64,000 nucleotides of DNA from Aphanothece cf. minutissima CCALA 015. Lineage in GTDB: Bacteria > Cyanobacteriota > Cyanobacteriia > PCC-6307 > Cyanobiaceae. The position numbers were made by a program, and so were the translations under genes. Numbering within the stretch: the stretch's first letter is position 1; every line of letters begins with the position of its first letter. The stretch covers positions 88,831 to 152,830 of the forward strand of contig PVWP01000009.1 in the NCBI GenBank assembly GCA_003003925.1, given 5' to 3'. Below are positions 10,560 through 48,807 of the stretch, piece by piece. The notes under the pieces are model-generated. The model was not told the origin of the DNA. It saw only the letters and a list, made by a program, of their open reading frames with translations, and searched no databases.

Positions 10560-11209
10560 CCGGCCGCCAGCACGATGCCGGCGCAGGCCTCGGCATCGGA
10601 GAGGGCATCGTGGTGCCGGAGCGGCAGGCCCAGATGGCGGCACACATCCGGCAGCTTGGTGGGGCGCAGGTTCCAGGCCCGCCGGGCCACCTGCACGGTG
10701 CAGACGAAGGGTTGGGCCGGGGGCCGCAGGCCGGCCTGCTCGCAGCAGGCCCGCAGCACCCCGGCATCGAAGCTGGCGTTGTGGGCGGCGATGAACTGGG
10801 CCCCCTCCAGACAGGCCGCCAGCTGGGGCCAGAGTTCGGCGAAGCTGGGCGCATCGGCCACCTGGGCCCAGCTGATCCCGTGGATGGAGGTGAACAGGAA
10901 GGTCCGGCGCGGCGGCCGGATCAGGTGGTGCTCGCGGCGCACGATCGTCCGCCCCTCCACCCGCACCAGGGCGATCGAGCAGGCACTGTCCCGGCCCTGA
11001 TCGGCTGTCTCGAAATCCAGCGTCACGAAACAGCTCGGGTGGAGATCGGCCAGGCCCGCGCGTGAGACCGGAGCCGGTGCCGGTGACCGCTGGATCGTCC
11101 GCAGGGCCTCGTCACCCCTGCGCAGGAAGCGCCGCTCGTCACGATCCAGGTTGGCGGCGCCCCAGCGGCTGCGGTAGGTCCCCAATTGATCGCAAGCCAG
11201 ATGGGCCAA
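10523..11209 (-). CDS. DEDDh 3'-5' exonuclease, 5' end replaced by the integrated element
   Basis: This is the main part of a DnaQ-like exonuclease: FVTLDFETAD (motif I), AHNASFDAGVL (motif II) and HHDALSDAEA (motif III with the catalytic His) are all present. The true first 30 codons lie at 33028-33117, on the far side of the 21.9-kb element. Across the junction both copies encode LGTYR from the shared 15-bp core, so the rebuilt protein would read about 245 residues. In the present arrangement the frame continues into the element, which supplies a TTG at 11209 and seven new codons; I see no good ribosome site for it. Catalytic residues remain, but expression is doubtful. Confidence 0.82.
   Translation of the reverse strand: MAHLACDQLGTYRSRWGAANLDRDERRFLRRGDEALRTIQRSPAPAPVSRAGLADLHPSCFVTLDFETADQGRDSACSIALVRVEGRTIVRREHHLIRPPRRTFLFTSIHGISWAQVADAPSFAELWPQLAACLEGAQFIAAHNASFDAGVLRACCEQAGLRPPAQPFVCTVQVARRAWNLRPTKLPDVCRHLGLPLRHHDALSDAEACAGIVLAAGQGVTAGLARSR
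11171..11185 (+). repeat. Left attachment-site core (attL)
   Basis: GCGGTAGGTCCCCAA occurs here and again at 33028-33042 in the same orientation. On the minus strand it encodes LGTYR in the exonuclease. The sequence to its left continues the host gene; the sequence to its right belongs to the element. Confidence 0.85.
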
Positions 11210-11236
11210 AGGATCTAAGCCTATACTAGGATAGCT

Positions 11237-11256
11237 GGTACTAGCGTTGGTACTAG
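11237..11256 (+). repeat. Left-end GGTACTAG double repeat
   Basis: Two copies of GGTACTAG separated by CGTT lie about 50 bp inside the left end. The same pair with spacer CGCT lies about 57 bp inside the right end (32951-32970), in the same orientation. A degenerate third half (TATACTAG) precedes it at about 11222. The repeat overlaps the integrase start region. Arm-type binding sites for integrase or its directionality factor, or an operator for the integrase gene, are plausible. Confidence 0.7.
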
Positions 11257-12479
11257 AAAGGGTGTCGCTCTACCTCAAGCATCGACCGGGGCGCTCAGGC
11301 TTGTACTTCCAACGCGCTGTCCCCAAGGACGTCCAGCAGGCCATCGGAAAGAAGGTCTGGTCCATCAAGGCAGGGGACACCCAAGCCCAGGCCAGAGCGG
11401 CAGCCAACAGGCTCCTGGAGGCCACTGACAGGGAGATCGCCCAGGCTCGGGGGATTCCTGGTGGGGTGATCGTCCCAGCGTCGGTCCGCCAACTCGATCC
11501 ACGGTCGAGGGATGCCAAAGCGATGGCCAGGCTGGAATCAGAGGCCTGGCTGAGGGGCAAGACGGTGGCCGAGGTGCGGGACGCCAGCGAGCTGGACTGG
11601 GACACCTACATGACAGCCCTTCCCAGCGAACCCGACGAGATCGACAAGATTCGATTGCTGCCAAAGGCTGAGTTCAAAACCGCTGATGAAGTGATCGAGA
11701 AAGCAGCTCTCATCAAGAAGCCAGCGCAGCAGACTCTGATCGAGTGGAGGAGGCACCTCCATAGCTTCGTTCAACAAGCAGGGCTGAGGGTCCTAACCTT
11801 CGCCACCAAGGACCAGGCCAGAGACTTCCGTGACCATCTTCTTGAGCGGGGTCTGAAGACATCAACGATCAAAGTGCGAATCAGCTACTTGTCTGGTCTC
11901 TGGTCGGTAATGGTCGATGAGGGATGGGTTGCTGAAAACATCTGGAGTGGCATCACCAAGCGGATGAAAACCGAAGTCACCCCGAAACAGATGATCGTGA
12001 TTGAGCCTGTTGATGAAGCTGCTGAGGCCAAGCTGGTGGGTGACCACAAGTTGCTGTACTTGCTTCTCCGCTATAGCGGGATGCGCCTTGCTGAGGCTGC
12101 TGGCCTGAGGTTTGAGGATATCCGGGATGGGGTCATCCAGGTCCAAGCGTACGGGCTGAGGTCGGTGAAAACAGGTCAGTCAGCTCGCCAGGTCCCTCTT
12201 CATCCGAAGCTGCTAGAGCTGAACTGGGATGGGACAGGAATTATCATGCCTAGATTCCACAACGCAAGATCCAGCCGCTGGGGAGGGGGAGTGACCTGGA
12301 AAAGGAAGATCGGAATATCGCCGAAGGACTTGAGGGATCATGCCAAGCAGCGGATGCGGGAGGCTGGCATCGACATTTCAGTCAGTCGAGCTGTCATGGG
12401 GCACACGGCGCTGAACGTGGGTGAAGCGTACGGGGCAATTTCGATGGAGTTGAAGAGAAGGGCGATTGAGGTTTTGTAA
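11247..12479 (+). CDS. int: Tyrosine recombinase/integrase
   Basis: This is a 410-aa site-specific recombinase of phage/island type. The catalytic set is Arg280 (YSGMRLAEAAGL), Lys360 and Arg363 (KDLRD, with Lys in the usual box II His place), His386 (MGHTAL) and the nucleophile Tyr395 (GEAYGAIS). An N-terminal SAM-like core-binding domain precedes it. The TTG at 11247 lies inside the GGTACTAG repeat; a GTG at 11262 (MSLYLKH) is an equally good start. It sits about 60 bp from attL and should catalyse insertion and excision of the element. A degraded copy of its last 15 codons is present at 19165. Confidence 0.92.
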   Translation: MVLERVSLYLKHRPGRSGLYFQRAVPKDVQQAIGKKVWSIKAGDTQAQARAAANRLLEATDREIAQARGIPGGVIVPASVRQLDPRSRDAKAMARLESEAWLRGKTVAEVRDASELDWDTYMTALPSEPDEIDKIRLLPKAEFKTADEVIEKAALIKKPAQQTLIEWRRHLHSFVQQAGLRVLTFATKDQARDFRDHLLERGLKTSTIKVRISYLSGLWSVMVDEGWVAENIWSGITKRMKTEVTPKQMIVIEPVDEAAEAKLVGDHKLLYLLLRYSGMRLAEAAGLRFEDIRDGVIQVQAYGLRSVKTGQSARQVPLHPKLLELNWDGTGIIMPRFHNARSSRWGGGVTWKRKIGISPKDLRDHAKQRMREAGIDISVSRAVMGHTALNVGEAYGAISMELKRRAIEVL

Positions 12480-20736: not shown

Positions 20737-20919
20737 TCACGACTCTCCGCATCTCCCTAACTCCTCCTTCAACGCCACCACAGCCGCAAACACAGGAGCC
20801 CACCGCTCCAGCACAGCCTCCCTCTCAGGGGTGTTTGGCTCAGTGGCTCGGCCCTCCTCCGACAGGGCGTCCAGTTGCTGCTGGAGTTCGGCTAAGCGGG
20901 TGGTGCGGTCGTCAGACAT
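20737..20919 (-). CDS. Small helical protein of unknown function
   Basis: The 60-aa frame is a predicted pair of amphipathic helices (TTRLAELQQQLDALSEE and ERWAPVFAAVVALKEELG) of the kind seen in small cyanobacterial coiled-coil proteins. It is leftward and isolated between two exported-protein genes. It is GC-richer than its neighbours. No family assignment. Confidence 0.4.
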   Translation of the reverse strand: MSDDRTTRLAELQQQLDALSEEGRATEPNTPEREAVLERWAPVFAAVVALKEELGRCGES

Positions 20920-24695: not shown

Positions 24696-25990
24696 CAGAG
24701 GCCAACCTCTTCGAGCATCCGTTCAGCATCGGAAATGCGGAGTTCTCCTGAGATGAGCTTGGGGAGGAGTGTGTCTCGGATCTTTGAAAGGATTACTGAT
24801 TGATCAGAGTTCGCACTAATCCTACGCATAAAATCAGTCGCCAGCAATCCAAACTGCACGAGAATCTCTTCGGGTGGCAATGGCAAAGTGAATCCACCAA
24901 CGGCATCCGAAGGAACTCTTTGCCTCCCACTTGAACCAACCATATTCTGAATGGCGTTATTTCTAAATGCCTCAGACCTTGCCAGGTAGTAGGCGAAGGG
25001 ATTGACCTCTTCTCGTCTGCCGCACATCACAATGAACTCGGTTGAACCCCAACCTGTTTCTCCATCCTTGAGGAAGTCAACAAATGCCGTCTTGCCATTC
25101 TCCAGGCACGGCGTTATTCGAGCAAGAAGAGTGTCTCCATTTCTGAACTTACTTCCAGACGAGAACTCACGAGCAATAACGTCTACAGAACTGTGACCAC
25201 TGGTAGGCACTCCCTTCATCTCTAAGTATGGAGAAATAGAACCTTTTCTCAGTTGGCGCTGCGGATCTATTTCAAGAATCTCTTCTAGGCGACCTATCTC
25301 CCACCCACTCGGAACCTCCCCCAACTCCGAATCCTCGAACGAATCAGGGAACAGATCACTGATCTCATCAGGCAGTCCAGTAGGGCGACCTTCTGCCTTC
25401 GCTCTCACAGGATCGAAATCCACAAACCACGACTTGAAAAGGGCCTTGGCCATCGCCTCTAAGGTTTCATTGGTTTTGCAATTGAGTTCGATCTTGTCGT
25501 CAAGGGTGCCGAGGGTGTGGGCGATGACTCTCTGATCCTGAAAAGGTGGGAAGGCGAGATCGATCTTCCGTAAAACACTCTGCTTTATGCCTACAACTGT
25601 GGTTCCCGTTGCCCTTGCCACTAAATCTCCCTGAAATGGCCTGGAGAGCAGCAGGTATTTGAGAAAGGTGTTATCCACAAGACCTTTCTTGCCCCTCAGA
25701 GTAATCACCCTCTGAGCCAATGCGACTTTGCCCTTTGGCAGTTGAGCGACTTCGCCAAGAGGTGCTTCCGTGGTAATTACAACATCTCCTGCTTCGGGTA
25801 TGCCACGCCTCATCCACTCGTCATACGCATCAGCGGCAATAAACTCACTAGGGGTCTCTATCCTCCCGCCCTTGATGACCTTTGCCGTAATAAGGGGGAT
25901 TCCAGCGGTCGTTTTTTCTGGCGTTCTTCCTCGATAGTCAATAATCGACTCCATCCACTCTTCAAGTGGAGCACATTGAGATTCACACAT
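24695..25990 (-). CDS. hsdS: Type I restriction enzyme, specificity subunit HsdS
   Basis: The 431-aa subunit has the two target-recognition domains, each followed by a helical spacer: the first ends in [24 protein letters not shown] (only part quoted in function), the second in the [25 protein letters not shown]-like tail, here described by positions 180-205 and 395-420. The start at 25990 overlaps the hsdM stop by 8 nt; an upstream ATG at 26017 lies inside hsdM. The recognition sequence cannot be read from the protein by eye. The TRD part of the gene is more AT-rich than hsdM and hsdR, common for exchanged TRDs. Confidence 0.92.
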
Positions 25991-27881
25991 ACCCCAACCT
26001 CCGCAGATTCTCTCCAATCACCTGATCCAACCTTGCCCCCTCTTCCTGCTGCTGCTTGAGCAGAGCAGTCAGTCGCTTCATCTTCTCATCAAACGGCTCA
26101 CCATCATCCTCCACATCAGCAGCACCCACATACCGTCCAGGGGTGAGCACAAACCCATTCCTCTCGATCTCGTCCAGCTTGGCGCTGTAGCTAAAGCCCG
26201 CCACATCCTCATAAGCCTCAGAGACCTCGCCATCACCACGCCAAGCGTGGACAGTATCAGCGATCCTCCCAATATCCTCATCCGTCAGGACCCGCTCAAC
26301 ACGAGTCACCATGGTCCCCAGCTGACGAGCATCAATGAACAAGGTCTCTCCCCTACGATCACGTCCACGCTGAGTCTTGTCGTTGGTCAAGAACCAGAGG
26401 CAAACAGGAATCGCTGTATTCAAGAACAACTGTCCTGGCAAAGCCACCATCACCTCAACCACGTCCCCCCGCACCATCGCCTCTCGGATCTGCCCCTCAC
26501 CACTCTGGTTGGAACTCATCGAACCATTCGCCAACACCACCCCGGCTTGGCCACCGGGGCGTAGCTTCCAAAGCATGTGCTGAAGCCAGGCGTAGTTGGC
26601 GTTGCCTACAGGGGGACGGCCATACACCCAGCGAGGATCGCTTTCGTACTTCTCACCGCCCCAGTCCGAGATGTTGAAGGGAGGATTGGCAAGGATGTAG
26701 TCGAACTTCTGATCGGGGAACTGATCTCTGGCAAAGGTGTCAGCGGGCTCCTGTCCCAAGTCAGCAGCAAACCCCCGAATCGCCAGGTTCATCGCTGCCA
26801 GGCGCCAGGTGGTTGGGTTGCTCTCCTGGCCGTAGATCGAGGCATCGTCTCTCTTGCCCCCATGCGCCTTGATGAACTTCTCGCTCTGGACGAACATCCC
26901 ACCAGAGCCACAGCAGGGGTCGTAGATCCGACCCTTGTGAGGTGCAAGGACTGCGACCAGGGTCTTGACTACATGAGCAGGGGTATAGAACTGTCCTCCC
27001 TTCTTCCCTTCAGCGCTGGCGAACTGGCCAAGGAAGTATTCGTAGACCTCACCCAGGACATCGCCTGAACGCTTGTCTTCAGCAAACCCGATGGTGGAGA
27101 TGAGATCCACCAACTCACCCATTCGCCCTGGTTCGAGCTGAGCAGCACCGAACCGCTTGTCCAGCTTCCCTCGAAGCGTTGGGTTCTCGTTCTCGATGGC
27201 AACCAGAGCCTTGTCGATCAGCTGACCAATGTCAGGTCGTTTGGCTTGTGCCCTGAGGGCCTCCCAGCGGGCCTCCTGAGGCACCCAAAAGACGTTCTCC
27301 TGGGTGTAGTAGTCCCGATCCTCCAAGGCCTCCTGGTGGTCCTCTGAGGCGTCTCCTAGGAAGTAGTCCGACTCTGGATCAGACACCAGGGCCAAGACCT
27401 TCTGTTGCTGGCTGACGAAGGTATCCGAGATGTACTTCAGGAAAATCAGCCCCAGAACCAGATGCTTGTACTCGGCGGCATCCATCTGGGCACGGAGCTT
27501 GTCCGCTGAAGCCCACAGCACTGCCTTGAAGTCCTTGGCAGGAGCTTCCTTCTTCGCTCGACCACGCTTGGCACCATTGCTAGATGGAACTGCAGTTGGA
27601 GCAACCTCTGATCCGACGCCAGCTGCTTCCGTCCGAAGTCCAATCGCCCCACCCCTACCACGACCACTACGGACCTTACCCATGCCCAGGAGCCTCTCCT
27701 TGGCCTCTAAATAAGCCCCATCGTCTATCTCCCTACCAATCCACGCAGAGAGGCGTTTCCGGGCCTCCTGGTTGCCGATGGTGGAGCCATCGCTGGGGAG
27801 GATCTCCATGAGGGCGTTGCCCAGCTCCTCTTCGATCTCCACCTCATCCGTGAAGGTGGCTTCTGACTGGTCGCTGGACAA
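25983..27881 (-). CDS. hsdM: Type I restriction enzyme, methyltransferase subunit HsdM
   Basis: The 632-aa protein is longer than many HsdM proteins because of an N-terminal extension of about 100 residues with a compact helical domain ([20 protein letters not shown]) and an Ala/Lys-rich linker. The usual HsdM parts follow: the helical N domain ([16 protein letters not shown]), SAM-binding motif [11 protein letters not shown], and the adenine methylase motif ILANPPFN. It methylates the site set by HsdS. The gene heads the hsdMSR operon; upstream lies the hairpin repeat array, whose first unit ends within 50-90 nt of the start codon. Confidence 0.94.
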
Positions 27882-27925
27882 GGGGGTGGCTGGGACGGTC
27901 AGGTAAGCCTATGTGGGGAAGGCTC

Positions 27926-28815
27926 GGGATGCCAGTGCTGGCCTAGGTTTCCCTGAATGACGGCCTTAAAGGGAGAGGGCAGAACCCATCACTGCTCCCC
28001 TAGGTCAGGCTGGCTGGGGCTGCAGAATCATCACGACTAAGAGTCCTTCCAGTGGGACGGGTTTCCCCGAGTTCCACGTTAAAGGGAATCACTGGAAAGC
28101 AATCGCTGAGATCCCTTCTACTGGAACGGATTCAGTTGAGTACATCCATAAAGGGAATCATAGGAACTCCCGCGCTGAGAGCCGTTGCGGTGGAGAGGGG
28201 TTCCGTTGATAACAGGTTTATAGGGAATCACAGGAGAGTCCTAGCTGAGAGCCCCAGTGACCCTTGCGTTGCAAGGGATGTCCCTGAGGTCCTCTGGATC
28301 AGTGATTTATAGGGACTCCCGCATCAGAGACCGTCCAAATCGAGGCGGGGGCTGGAGTCTTCCCGAGGTTCCCGTTATAGGGACTTGAAGTACAAACCCA
28401 TCCATCGCTGCCTCGCCGATGAGCCCCTTTGATCCCTTCCAAGGCAAGGAGCTTCCCCGACCCCACTCAAAGGGGGGATCAATCCTCTCGATCATCCCCG
28501 TGCCTCAGTTCTGATCCCTTCAGATCGACTGTGCTGCAGCGGATCCGCCGAACAGTTCCATACAGGGAGAAACCCCAGCCCCGCCAACCCACAATTCATC
28601 TGGTATTGGGTGATACAAGTTCCGTGGGATACACAAAATCACCGGGTCTGAGATCCACTGCGCTGGAATGGATCTCCAGATAACACCCATAAGGGAAAGA
28701 GCCGGTTCAATCCAGTGAGCTAATCCGGCCTGTAAGAACCACAGCTCAAGCTCAGTGACCCTTGAGATCCACTGCGATGCAAGGGATTTCCCGAGTACCC
28801 ATTTAAAGGGACAGC
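27926..28815. repeat. Array of ten degenerate hairpin/GGGA repeats
   Basis: No gene lies between hsdM and the next ORF at 28954. Instead about ten related units occur. Each has a hairpin-forming first half, such as GAGATCC/GGATCTC at 28650-28676 or CCCTTGC/GCAAGGG at 28261-28277, then TTCCC-GAG-like spacer and an AT-rich block ending in GGGA. The end blocks (TTAAAGGGA, ATAAAGGGA or TTATAGGGA types) start at about 27966, 28079, 28148, 28218, 28307, 28375, 28467, 28560, 28689 and 28803, that is every 68-129 bp. The array precedes a helicase-like gene, so an iteron-type replication origin is one reading; a set of promoters or small RNAs is another. Confidence 0.7.
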
Positions 28816-28953
28816 ACTCACCCCCCACTACCGCCCACCGAGAGGATCAACACCAGGCTCGATACCTGGGGTAGGGCATTCGCCAGGCGCTGGCCGTTCT
28901 CGACAGATCGTCGAAGGAACGAACAATCACGCACACACTTTCTCAGATCAACA

Positions 28954-29130
28954 ATGCAGACCAACCATTCCAAGCGTCTCCAACCAGCCGAAGACTTGGT
29001 AGGAGCCCTTCAACAGATCAACTCGACCTTACGGAAGATCGCCTATCGGCTGGACGATGCCACTGAGCTTCTCAAGCAGGGCAGGGAAGGTATCTCCGTC
29101 AGGAGTGCCGGAGGACAGGTCAAGAAGTGA
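28954..29130 (+). CDS. 58-aa helical protein upstream of the helicase gene
   Basis: An ATG opens a 58-residue frame that ends in a TGA overlapping the GTG start of the helicase-like gene (GTGA). The protein is mainly one amphipathic helix pair (DLVGALQQINSTLRKIAY and LDDATELLKQ) with a basic end. It has the same direction and coupling as the next gene, which supports a real two-gene unit, perhaps a replication accessory or regulator. No family is recognised. Confidence 0.6.
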   Translation: MQTNHSKRLQPAEDLVGALQQINSTLRKIAYRLDDATELLKQGREGISVRSAGGQVKK

Positions 29131-31304
29131 CATCGACACCATTCCATTCAACCAAACACCCACACCAGCCAATGAAGACCACCACCATTACCACCACTAC
29201 ACCCCCCACGACCCGTATCCCTGTTCTGAAGCGCAGGAGGTCGAACGATTACCACGATATCGACCCGACCACAGCCATTCGGATCAAGGGCGATGCCTTT
29301 GGGGAGGAACCGCCTCTTGCACCTCCCGATCTCGCAAACACTCCCAAGATCGAAGAGATCTGGTTCATCGAGGACATGACAGCCATCTGGACCAGCAGAG
29401 GCAACGAAGTCTCCCCTGAGCTAATCGAAGAATGGAAGCTGCTCCTGGGAGCTTTCAACAACTCTCTGCTCGACACCAGCGGAACGGTCTACACCTACAA
29501 CGGGACCTGTGGTATCGGGAAGTCTCAAGCTGCCCAAGTGGCCTGTGCTGATCTAGCGGCCAGCTACTACCATCCCGAGTTCACCCGAATCAATTCCAGC
29601 TGGGGAGCCATCCTCATTGTTGAGCGGATTCAGACAGCCGAAGAAACTGCCAAGCAGATCAACCTCCTCTATCAGGACATCACCGGAAGGACTGACAACT
29701 GTGCGATAGCCAAGCACTCCCAGTCCGACGTCAGCTTCGATGACATCTACAACTACCCGATTCTGGTGATCTGCCATCAGGCCTACAGCAACTCGCTGCA
29801 GAGGCTCAGTGATGGCAACGACACAACCATGAGGTCCTTTACCAAGTGGAGGTACGGCCAGCGAAGGCTTGTCATCGTTGACGAATCCATCAACCCCATC
29901 ACCGAGTATCAGCTTACCCTCCAGGACTACAACCGGGTTCATGGCTACTTCGTTCAGAACGGAGTCATCCCCCGACTGAAGCAGCAGCATCCTCAGGAAT
30001 GGGCCGTGTTTGAAGCGATTGGTCCAGTCCTCGAACAGATCGAACTGGAAAACAAGGCCATCACGGTCAAAAGTGATAGCTTCAGACAGATCCTTGAGAA
30101 TGCCCCCTCTGCCAACCTGCAGCGGCTCTACGACACCCTCCTGAAGGACTGTGCCTGGGATCTGATCACCACCGGTCGAGAGAGCGCATCACTAGCCCGA
30201 GATGTGAGGACCAATATCAAGACCTGCCTTCAGGCCATTGATCGGCTGGTCACAGACTGGTCCTACTCAACCAAGTCTGGGAAGTTCCAAAAGACCAACG
30301 CGGCTAACTGGCTGATCTCCGATGAGGTGGGAAGCATGGTCATCCTGGATGGCACTGCTGCCCAGGACCTGACCTACTCGCTCTTCCCAAATCGGGTGGT
30401 GGTCCTATCCAACAAGGGTCTCAGGAACCTTGAGAAAGCCACACTTCACAGCAAGCGCACCAAGGCCAACCTTGGGAAGTCTGGCTTCTCTGATCCATCA
30501 ATACGTGATGCCCGTGCTATCGAGCTGTACGAATGGCTGAAGGCCAATCTCGACCCAGATCGCAGGGTTCTAGTGGTCTCTCACCAGAACCTCGAAACCG
30601 TCCTGATGGATCTCTCAATCGCTGACCCACACTTCCAACAGTTCGACACGACACACTGGGGAGCAACTACAGGGGAGAATCGCTGGTCCGACTTCGACAC
30701 CGTAGTGATCGCTTCTTGCTTCTATCGACCAAGGGAGTGGGCTGCTAACGCCATCTGCTCTCAGCTTGGCCTCGCTGAAGGTTTGGAACACCTGAGCCAT
30801 CGTGAGAGGACCAGCCTTGTTGAAGCCATGGTCAATAGCAAAGTGGCTGTGGAGATGATCCAGGCCTTCTATCGGTGTCGCATCCGCAGGGTCATTGACG
30901 CTGTGGGTCGTTGCCACAAGGCTGATCTCTTCGTGCTTCTGCCTAGTGATGAACGGGGTGATCAGATCGAGGAGAGGATCCTTGCTGAGCTTCCGAATGT
31001 GAAGGTCTCAGATTGGACGTTCTCGGGGTTTGAGCAGACTCGGAAACCAAGGGGAACCGACCAACTCAAAGAGGCTGCGTTCCTTCGAGCCCTGGAGGAT
31101 CTTCCTACTGGCAAGACTCCCCTTGGGGAGTTCCTTGAGCTGGTGGGGATCTCTAGCCGGGCTTGGAAGAAGACTTGGCGTTGTCGGTTTACTGGCGATC
31201 ATCCGATCTCAGACAAGGCCAGGAGTCTTGGCATCAGCCTGACCTACAGCGGATTTGGTAGGTCGCAGAAGACCTACCTAGAGAGGTCCAAGACCAAAAC
31301 CTAG
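29127..31304 (+). CDS. Helicase-like ATPase, putative replication protein of the element
   Basis: The 725-aa protein has Walker A TCGIGKSQAA near residue 130 and a Walker B/DExx-type RRLVIVDES near residue 250, then a second motor-like half with RRVLVVSHQNLETV, WSDFDTVVIASCF and RCRIRRVIDAVGRCHKAD, which resembles helicase motifs V-VI. The layout recalls SF2-type helicases in cyanobacterial plasmids (the CyRepA1-like group), but I cannot confirm the family. The start is GTG at 29127 or ATG at 29172, before a Thr-rich stretch. It follows the hairpin array and the 58-aa gene, so origin binding or unwinding for autonomous replication is a reasonable inference. Confidence 0.7.
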   Translation: MTSTPFHSTKHPHQPMKTTTITTTTPPTTRIPVLKRRRSNDYHDIDPTTAIRIKGDAFGEEPPLAPPDLANTPKIEEIWFIEDMTAIWTSRGNEVSPELIEEWKLLLGAFNNSLLDTSGTVYTYNGTCGIGKSQAAQVACADLAASYYHPEFTRINSSWGAILIVERIQTAEETAKQINLLYQDITGRTDNCAIAKHSQSDVSFDDIYNYPILVICHQAYSNSLQRLSDGNDTTMRSFTKWRYGQRRLVIVDESINPITEYQLTLQDYNRVHGYFVQNGVIPRLKQQHPQEWAVFEAIGPVLEQIELENKAITVKSDSFRQILENAPSANLQRLYDTLLKDCAWDLITTGRESASLARDVRTNIKTCLQAIDRLVTDWSYSTKSGKFQKTNAANWLISDEVGSMVILDGTAAQDLTYSLFPNRVVVLSNKGLRNLEKATLHSKRTKANLGKSGFSDPSIRDARAIELYEWLKANLDPDRRVLVVSHQNLETVLMDLSIADPHFQQFDTTHWGATTGENRWSDFDTVVIASCFYRPREWAANAICSQLGLAEGLEHLSHRERTSLVEAMVNSKVAVEMIQAFYRCRIRRVIDAVGRCHKADLFVLLPSDERGDQIEERILAELPNVKVSDWTFSGFEQTRKPRGTDQLKEAAFLRALEDLPTGKTPLGEFLELVGISSRAWKKTWRCRFTGDHPISDKARSLGISLTYSGFGRSQKTYLERSKTKT

Positions 31305-32241: not shown

Positions 32242-32928
32242 ATGGATTTGGTCGCCTACTACAGGGTCTCGACAGACCGACAAGGCCAGAGCGGTCTTGG
32301 CCTGGAGGCCCAGCGGGAGAAGGTCACCCAGCTGGCTGCTGAGCGTAAAGCCGTGGTCGTGGCTGAGTTCGTCGAGGTGGAGTCGGGTCGGAAGACCGAT
32401 AGGACTGAGCTGGCCAAGGCCCTGGTGGAAGCTCGGAACAGGAAGGCTGCCCTCACGGTGGCCAAGTTGGACAGGCTTGCTCGGGATGCTGAGTTCGTTC
32501 TGAGGCTGAGCAGGGAGGCAGAGACCAACGGGCTTGGGGGATTCATCTTCTGCGACCTACCCGACGTCGATGCCACCACCTCTGCTGGTCGGCTGATCCT
32601 GTCCGTCATGGCCTCCGTGGCTGAGTTCGAGAGTCGGCGGATCTCTGAACGGACCAGGGATGCTCTGGCTGCTGCCAAGGCCCGTGGGGTCAAGCTGGGG
32701 GGTCTTAGACCTGGAACCCTCCGTCACAACAAAGCGGCCAAGGAGAGGGCCACCAGGGAGGCCGAGAAGCTTCGAGGGGTCCTTCGGCCCATGGCTGCAG
32801 CTGGGCTCAGCCTGAGGGACATGGCGGCTGCCCTGGAGGGGGCTGGGAAGACCACGAAGGCGGGGAACCAGCTGAGCCCGACCCAGGTCAAGCGGCTTCT
32901 GGAGCGGCTGGGTATCGAGGTGGGTTAG
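32242..32928 (+). CDS. Serine recombinase (resolvase/invertase family)
   Basis: The 228-aa enzyme starts with the resolvase catalytic domain: YYRVSTDRQGQSGLGLEAQ with nucleophile Ser10, then LTVAKLDRLARD and FIFCDLPDVDATTSAGRL, and ESRRISERTRDALAAAKARG leading into the DNA-binding end. The last 80 residues contain a helix-turn-helix of the resolvase type (LSLRDMAAALEGAG). The gene is close to the right end, 100 nt from attR. Since a tyrosine integrase already explains insertion, this enzyme may resolve multimers or invert a segment; palindromes upstream are candidate sites. Confidence 0.92.
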   Translation: MDLVAYYRVSTDRQGQSGLGLEAQREKVTQLAAERKAVVVAEFVEVESGRKTDRTELAKALVEARNRKAALTVAKLDRLARDAEFVLRLSREAETNGLGGFIFCDLPDVDATTSAGRLILSVMASVAEFESRRISERTRDALAAAKARGVKLGGLRPGTLRHNKAAKERATREAEKLRGVLRPMAAAGLSLRDMAAALEGAGKTTKAGNQLSPTQVKRLLERLGIEVG

Positions 32929-32950
32929 GGGGGATCTGTCCCCGTCGCTT

Positions 32951-32970
32951 GGTACTAGCGCTGGTACTAG
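32951..32970 (+). repeat. Right-end GGTACTAG double repeat
   Basis: Two copies of GGTACTAG with spacer CGCT, matching the left-end pair in 19 of 20 positions and in the same orientation. It lies 57 bp inside attR. No gene begins here, so its conservation argues for a role in recombination rather than in transcription of the integrase alone. Confidence 0.7.
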
Positions 32971-33024
32971 AACGGGCTCTCGGGAATCGCAAGAAGCCAG
33001 TCTCCGACTGACATTGTGACCTTC

Positions 33025-48768: not shown

Positions 48769-48807
48769 CTGAAGTCCCTTACTCGCACTCCTTCGGAGCA
48801 CTTCGCC

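Follow-up and report, generated by a model that had tools for sequence, protein, structure and literature searches.

A directional ten-unit repeat array beside a P-loop ATPase gene in a cyanobacterial integrative element: a possible replication origin or copy-control region

Ten related units, all on the plus strand, occupy positions 27921-28813 of the window (the whole 64-kb stretch of DNA that was analysed), between hsdM and the gene for a P-loop ATPase, in agreement with the first-pass annotation that had described such an array. We read it, with a probability of about 0.45, as a multi-site replication origin or copy-control region used by the element's own initiator, and within that reading we take the repeats, at the same short-of-even odds, to be a fast-turnover site sequence. 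An origin for the adjacent gene was one of three readings offered earlier, and it is the best supported of them because a sister element (genome G198) likewise has an array together with the ATPase module and because a VapE/PriCT_2 protein replaces the ATPase in a third element (genome G090), although the units are not classical iterons. The probability is kept below one half because the units share no helical phase, no AT-rich block stands out, the ATPase is without a family and G090 has no clear array.

The array lies within an integrative element of ~21.9 kb (11171-33042), delimited on the basis of direct repeats and GC content. A 15-bp direct repeat, GCGGTAGGTCCCCAA, at 11171 and 33028 bounds the element, GGTACTAG repeats occur just within both ends, and GC content per kb is 0.49-0.63 inside, against mostly 0.65-0.77 outside, with a few dips to 0.59. 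A tyrosine integrase is encoded at 11247-12479 (+; Phage_integrase, 7.8e-09; phrog_1, 2.4e-27), and the combination of an integrase with flanking att repeats is that of an integrative element. The divergent neighbour of the array is HsdM (25983-27881, -; N6_Mtase, 2.9e-104), and a serine recombinase of the resolvase/invertase type is found near the right end (32242-32928, +; Resolvase, 8.2e-32). No tRNA gene was detected in the 64-kb window, no capsid or packaging family among eight proteins scanned against PHROGs, and no partition gene among 16 element ORFs scanned against Pfam. The repeats just within the element ends, at 11234-11256 and 32949-32972 (GGTACTAGCG[TC]TGGTACTAG), are perhaps integrase arm sites. 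A stretch of ~155 bp (20761-20915), conserved in G090 and twice in G198, may encode a small minus-strand protein, as judged by reading.

Going by the GGG anchor, the units are laid out roughly as follows: a partial palindrome comes first, a TTCC-CCGAG-like sequence follows, and TWAWAGGGA closes the unit, with nine bases between the latter two in 7 of the 10 units (by reading). Conservation within the ~55 bp centres on a directional 9-bp core, TTAAAGGGA, which varies less than any other part of the unit (permutation P of 0.02 in one alignment and 0.0006 in another). It is present as such in unit 1 (27921-27976), unit 2 (28036-28090) and unit 10 (28759-28813), which scored 25.1, 37.4 and 41.1 bits, respectively, with R1, a sequence-only model of the unit. 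The core reads ATAAAGGGA in unit 3 (28104-28159; 37.9 bits) and TTATAGGGA in units 4 (28173-28229; 34.6 bits), 5 (28254-28317; 26.2 bits) and 6 (28331-28385; 26.7 bits), is degenerate in unit 7 (CAAAGGGG; 28424-28479; 27.5 bits), and reads ATACAGGGA in unit 8 (28517-28570; 29.8 bits) and ATAAGGGA in unit 9 (28647-28698; 35.9 bits). Units 9 and 10 additionally contain the palindromes GATCCACTGCGCTGGAATGGATC and GATCCACTGCGATGCAAGGGATT, respectively. The end motif AAAGGGA/ATAGGGA, which the first-pass annotation had assigned to the array as a whole, was exact in seven of the ten units but not in unit 7 (CAAAGGGG), unit 8 (TACAGGGA) or unit 9 (TAAGGGA). The spacing that had been given was closely matched, the GGG anchors being 113, 69, 70, 89, 68, 92, 93, 128 and 115 bp apart; these distances of 68-128 bp follow no common helical phase. 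The array is not a CRISPR, as had been stated, since identity to the reference is 61-77% in ungapped families of 26-56 nt and the spacing is 68-128 bp; shorter ungapped repeat families reach up to 90% identity to the reference.

Searched up to E 10, R1 gave ten matches in the 64-kb window, all of them in the array and on the plus strand. The host genome, searched to E 0.1, yielded these ten and no others, in a scan with strict, fast filters in which 131 of 1566 first-look candidates were scored. R1 was built from the array units themselves and thus matches its own building sequences, so a leave-one-out matrix and a shuffle test were added. With the ungapped leave-one-out matrix (-45 to +10), 7 of the 10 units scored at least 11 bits, and outside the array nothing on either strand of the 64 kb exceeded 6.1 bits with the full ungapped matrix; the failures were unit 5 (-0.8), unit 7 (-21.2) and unit 9 (-25.8), probably owing to small length differences. 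A 24-mer family in the array region had five members against at most three in 40 dinucleotide shuffles, so the similarity of the units exceeds chance; six other stretches, by contrast, did not rise above their own shuffles. All seven occurrences of [AT]T[AT][AT]AGGGA in 64 kb fall within the array. With a shorter 28-bp matrix, a host place at 48778 (-) scored 14.0 bits and so outscored units 9 (11.6 bits) and 7 (10.9 bits), indicating that the short core alone is no perfect discriminator.

The ATPase and the element occur in one other of 42 genus genomes, that of Aphanothece saxicola GSE-SYN-MK-01-06B (G198), where the element is flanked by a 47-bp repeat corresponding to the end of its 6S RNA gene (L004 9584-9766, L026). 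The DNA common to both elements comprises part of the integrase, a nuclease-like gene, part of hsdR, the start of hsdM, the small ORF described below, the ATPase (67-69% protein identity) and the resolvase (87% DNA identity). Between the hsdM remnant and the ATPase gene of G198 there are 12 units with the core TGCTGAGGA, 63-121 bp apart, as compared with at most three copies in 40 shuffles, and their 9-bp core has a permutation P of 0.0002, the units being partly recent duplicates; a 213-bp stretch occurs three times at steps of 266-267 bp, with copies 85% and 62% like the reference. Both flanks of the array are alike between the window and G198. The start of hsdM in G198 is a remnant with stops, while array, leader motif, small ORF and ATPase are kept; because hsdM has decayed and the array persists, the array belongs with the ATPase side, and HsdM was not counted as part of the array system. 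In favour of the origin or copy-control reading we count that two elements with 67-69% identical ATPases share the position of an array, with 10 units in one and 12 in the other, and that each array has its conservation focused on a 9-bp core.

The repeat sequences themselves are not shared. The window model found no match in six loci that included the G198 element, the model of the G198 array (R2) found none in the window or in the window's genome, and nhmmer profiles of one array against the other did not outperform reversed controls. That the two arrays are homologous, an idea raised by possible common words seen by eye, was rejected for lack of any cross-match above control with nhmmer and the two models. 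Outside the arrays, R1 gave one weak match in G198 (C7, E 0.06), and R2, run on six genomes, gave weak matches in G198 (C2, E 0.09) and G062 (E 0.04). Conservation in related elements, the lack of which would have counted against the first-pass annotation, holds for the layout, kept in the one relative found with the same gene, but not for the sequence.

The P-loop ATPase (29127-31304, +; 725 aa) has P-loop and Walker B-like motifs, identified by reading, and would act as both helicase and initiator. Its GTG start at 29127 overlaps the stop of the small ORF, with an alternative ATG at 29172. It matched no family in Pfam, PHROGs or NCBIfam and no solved relative by sequence. The structure model of the full protein was poor (mean pLDDT 33.8), and that of the C-terminal domain (pLDDT 64) had no match below E 0.5. 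CyRepA1 was considered as an identity for the protein and rejected (no NCBIfam hit up to E 1 for NF042913; hhalign probability 0.4%). No relatives were found in the viral contigs, plasmids or phages searched; the ATPase was present in 2 of the 300 genomes of the family and 2 of the 42 of the genus, own genome included, in the own genome only among 386 phylum genomes, and at one locus in 84,980 species genomes, by a pattern scan that can miss distant relatives and may omit the window's genome.

Two further features lie between array and ATPase gene. A leader motif with a 5-bp stem, CGAGAGGATC...CCAGGCTCGATACCTGGGGTAGGG, is located at 28839-28876 (+), and CGAGAGGATC-N4-CYRRGCTCGMTRCYTRGGGG recurs downstream of both arrays and in G090. 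Allowing up to three mismatches, it was found in 3 of 300 family genomes and the reversed-pattern control in none; the copies in the other elements are at L004 14225 (-) and L022 11747. Each of the three sequences can form the stem, and one two-sided change occurs among them, a covariation that was reached in 182 of 500 shuffles and is not significant. An invariant CGAG/CTCG in the motif could also pair, possibly as a pseudoknot; being invariant, it is uninformative on pairing. The small ORF (28954-29130, +; 58 aa), with a conserved centre LRKI[AS]Y, begins 0.14 kb after the array end, and the ATPase gene 0.3 kb after it; relatives of the ORF were found in 3 of 42 genus genomes (own included), the same three that have the leader motif.

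The ATPase slot of G090, behind leader motif and small ORF, is occupied by a VapE/PriCT_2 protein, which suggests a replication module, and we infer that this slot is that of the replication initiator. The VapE/PriCT_2 protein was matched in part by 63 plasmid records, none over 80% of its length, one of these plasmids being 5.8 kb in size. A repeat array in G090 was considered but is not claimed: 37-nt copies at 11537 and 11628 (76%) and a weaker third at 11050 (65%) were found, and three copies were reached in 1 of 40 shuffles, which is not clearly above chance. In the VapE plasmid pAL20115c (L036), TCACTTGTTACAG[TA]GAA was observed at 851-867, 919-935 and 1094-1110, two of the three copies being upstream of a small ORF at 947. 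A distant relative of the resolvase was located on a 9844-base contig of G644 (L025), together with ParA/CbiA-like and CyRepA1-like proteins, the latter with 159.9 bits, below the family cut-off of 200. Both ends of this contig match the start of the resolvase region, and it is perhaps a small circular replicon.

The first-pass annotation had described each unit as a hairpin, and some units do fold, but no structure is common to them: RNAalifold on a MAFFT alignment of the units (A2) returned 0 consensus pairs. The whole-unit fold z-scores give a weak signal (mean -0.76, combined -2.4), compared with a mean of -0.33 and a combined value of -1.0 for control pieces of the ATPase gene. The best folders were units 5, 9 and 10 as whole units and units 3 and 10 for the hairpin part; the G198 units showed no advantage over shuffles (mean z +0.35 for the sense strand and +0.92 for the opposite one). 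The hairpin was rejected as the defining feature of the array, because the palindrome carried by units 9 and 10 is one of a family spread across the genus and G198 has no match to it. With at most one mismatch, GAYCCNYTGCNNNGCARNGGRTY was found in 29 of 42 genus genomes (reversed-pattern control, 0), with copies at L047, L048, L072, L077 and L082 and, in the window, at 28652-28674 and 28766-28788 (units 9 and 10), the only matches in the window's own genome. At L047, L077 and L082 it follows tRNA genes, confirmed by ARAGORN, with a T-run behind it, and in G062 it lies near one end of a repeated transposase-bearing element (six stretches compared; transposase families matched). G198 had 0 matches, so the palindrome is not required for an array, and it looks like a re-used terminator-type hairpin rather than an array signature. 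R1 also gave partial matches in 19 other genomes (E 0.002-0.1), mostly over the palindrome part; taking the rough E-values at face value, chance alone would give such matches in ~4 of 41 genomes.

Under the origin or copy-control reading, the array would act in cis to start replication or control copy number, in an integrative element able to replicate also as an excised circle, each unit of ~55 bp being one directional DNA site. The support for this is positional and evolutionary in kind. The ATPase, as initiator, would bind the units, probably through its C-terminal domain, and load at several of them, opening or licensing the region; replication would start at the array, and the number of sites would set or limit copy number. 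Leader motif and small ORF would be parts of the same control module, as at the pSYSA rep locus. The detrended GC-skew minimum falls inside the ATPase gene in both elements (30657 in the window, 382117 in G198), 1.8 kb and ~2.2 kb past the array, respectively, and was taken as weak support because it lies beyond the arrays and gene direction can cause it. AT content varied between 0.39 and 0.52 per 100-bp step over 27.9-28.9 kb, and no AT-rich unwinding region stood out there. Tandem direct repeats beside a putative initiator gene are present, as in iteron origins; the short, regular repeats of ~17-22 bp are not, the units being ~55 bp long, 68-128 bp apart and unphased.

The array might instead work as RNA, transcribed towards the ATPase gene as a long leader or as short RNAs, with the units serving as attenuators, processing sites or antisense targets, comparable to the leader RNA in pSYSA or in P4 immunity. 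We regard this as unlikely; the slightly better folding of whole window units than of shuffles (combined z -2.4), the leader stem paired in three elements with one two-sided change, and the likeness of the unit 9 and 10 palindrome to a genus-wide hairpin, a terminator after some tRNA genes, speak for it, but the units have no consensus fold, those of G198 fold no better than shuffles, the covariation of the leader stem is not significant with three sequences, and 27850-29200 holds one terminator-like site, below the shuffle mean of 1.4. No Rfam family reached its threshold, two implausible weak matches lying below it (E 0.87 and 8.6), and with weak folding and no consensus pair the small-RNA family proposed earlier finds little support. 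RNA control nevertheless keeps some probability because all units face the ATPase gene and because the copy number of pSYSA is under RNA control at the same place (PMC9978351). The least probable alternative is that the units serve a phage-type single-subunit RNA polymerase, either as promoters in tandem or as decoys. The core TAWAGGGA does resemble the initiation part of T3 and T7 promoters, but with the short box matrix, which gave 10.9-32.1 bits for the array units, the best score elsewhere in the element was 10.5 bits, inside hsdS; the exact box patterns had 2 and 1 matches in viral contigs, single per stretch, the G198 core TGCTGAGGA is unlike such promoters, and sigma-70-like sites were at chance (1 found, shuffle mean 0.7). 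With no second unit-like site in the element, a different core in the sister and single viral matches, this suggestion of the first-pass annotation is not supported.

Less likely again than an RNA role, the units could be sites for another protein of the element or the host, acting in partition, transfer or repression, with replication located elsewhere. Partition sites are often arrays, the directional core is conserved and the dyad of units 9 and 10 occurs genus-wide; against this, the 16 element ORFs include no partition gene, and the dyad, absent from G198 (0 matches), cannot be the common function. That the array is a functionless product of neutral duplication in tandem, in DNA to spare between genes, seems improbable: the repeat sequences differ between the two elements and the threefold 213-bp stretch of G198 indicates that arrays do grow by duplication, but conservation is focused on one 9-bp core in both arrays, which occupy the same place in both elements with all units in one direction.

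A bolder version of the origin or copy-control reading, which we consider doubtful, is that origins or incompatibility loci of mobile elements have here a class not described before, with re-invented arrays and an initiator ATPase of an undescribed family. Its sites would be long, asymmetric and unphased, at least ten per array and unrelated between sisters; leader, small ORF and ATPase would stay while the site sequence is replaced wholesale, and the array would serve as a rapidly evolving address by which related elements could coexist. A place that is kept while the sequence changes wholly suggests that difference itself is selected for, as it would be in incompatibility determinants. Should the units bind the family-less ATPase, they would define a new cyanobacterial replicon type, useful for picocyanobacterial vectors, and the co-evolution of initiator and site would be directly testable by an array swap between the two sister elements.

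Among known systems, the ssr7036-slr7037 (CyRepA1) locus of the Synechocystis plasmid pSYSA, cyanobacterial like the element, has a leader small ORF of 64 aa, here 58 aa, followed by a large Rep with a helicase domain, here the P-loop ATPase (PMC9978351). In pSYSA, a fragment with the 64-aa ORF and the downstream rep gene replicates and the ORF region alone hardly does, placing origin activity within the small ORF-rep block, and the passages cited name no repeat array (PMC9978351). The window has ten units. CyRepA proteins combine DUF3854 and DEXDc domains, as given in the cited part of a second study (PMC10079941). The window ATPase has no detectable similarity to them; a small ORF directly upstream of a putative Rep is present, a CyRepA1 protein is not. 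Iteron-type origins of plasmids and islands, of which the SaPI and P4 origins are examples, have multiple same-strand direct sites beside a putative initiator gene and a site sequence that differs between related replicons, as here, but their sites are ~20 bp long, whereas the units are ~55 bp, spaced 68-128 bp without phase, and come without an AT-rich block. The VapE/PriCT_2 module of G090 shares leader motif and small ORF but has a different ATPase and no long array, and pAL20115c has small ORFs and a few 17-bp repeats before a putative Rep, likewise with no long array. The element resembles tycheposons and phage satellites as an integrative cyanobacterial element with a tyrosine integrase and a replication-type gene of its own; it differs in that the window has no tRNA gene, the G198 copy being at the 6S RNA gene, and in that the eight proteins scanned include no capsid or packaging family. 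No paper describing this layout was found in the open-access literature with a limited set of search terms. Arrays beside initiator genes are already known; what is new is an array of long, unphased units, replaced wholesale between relatives, beside an ATPase without a family.
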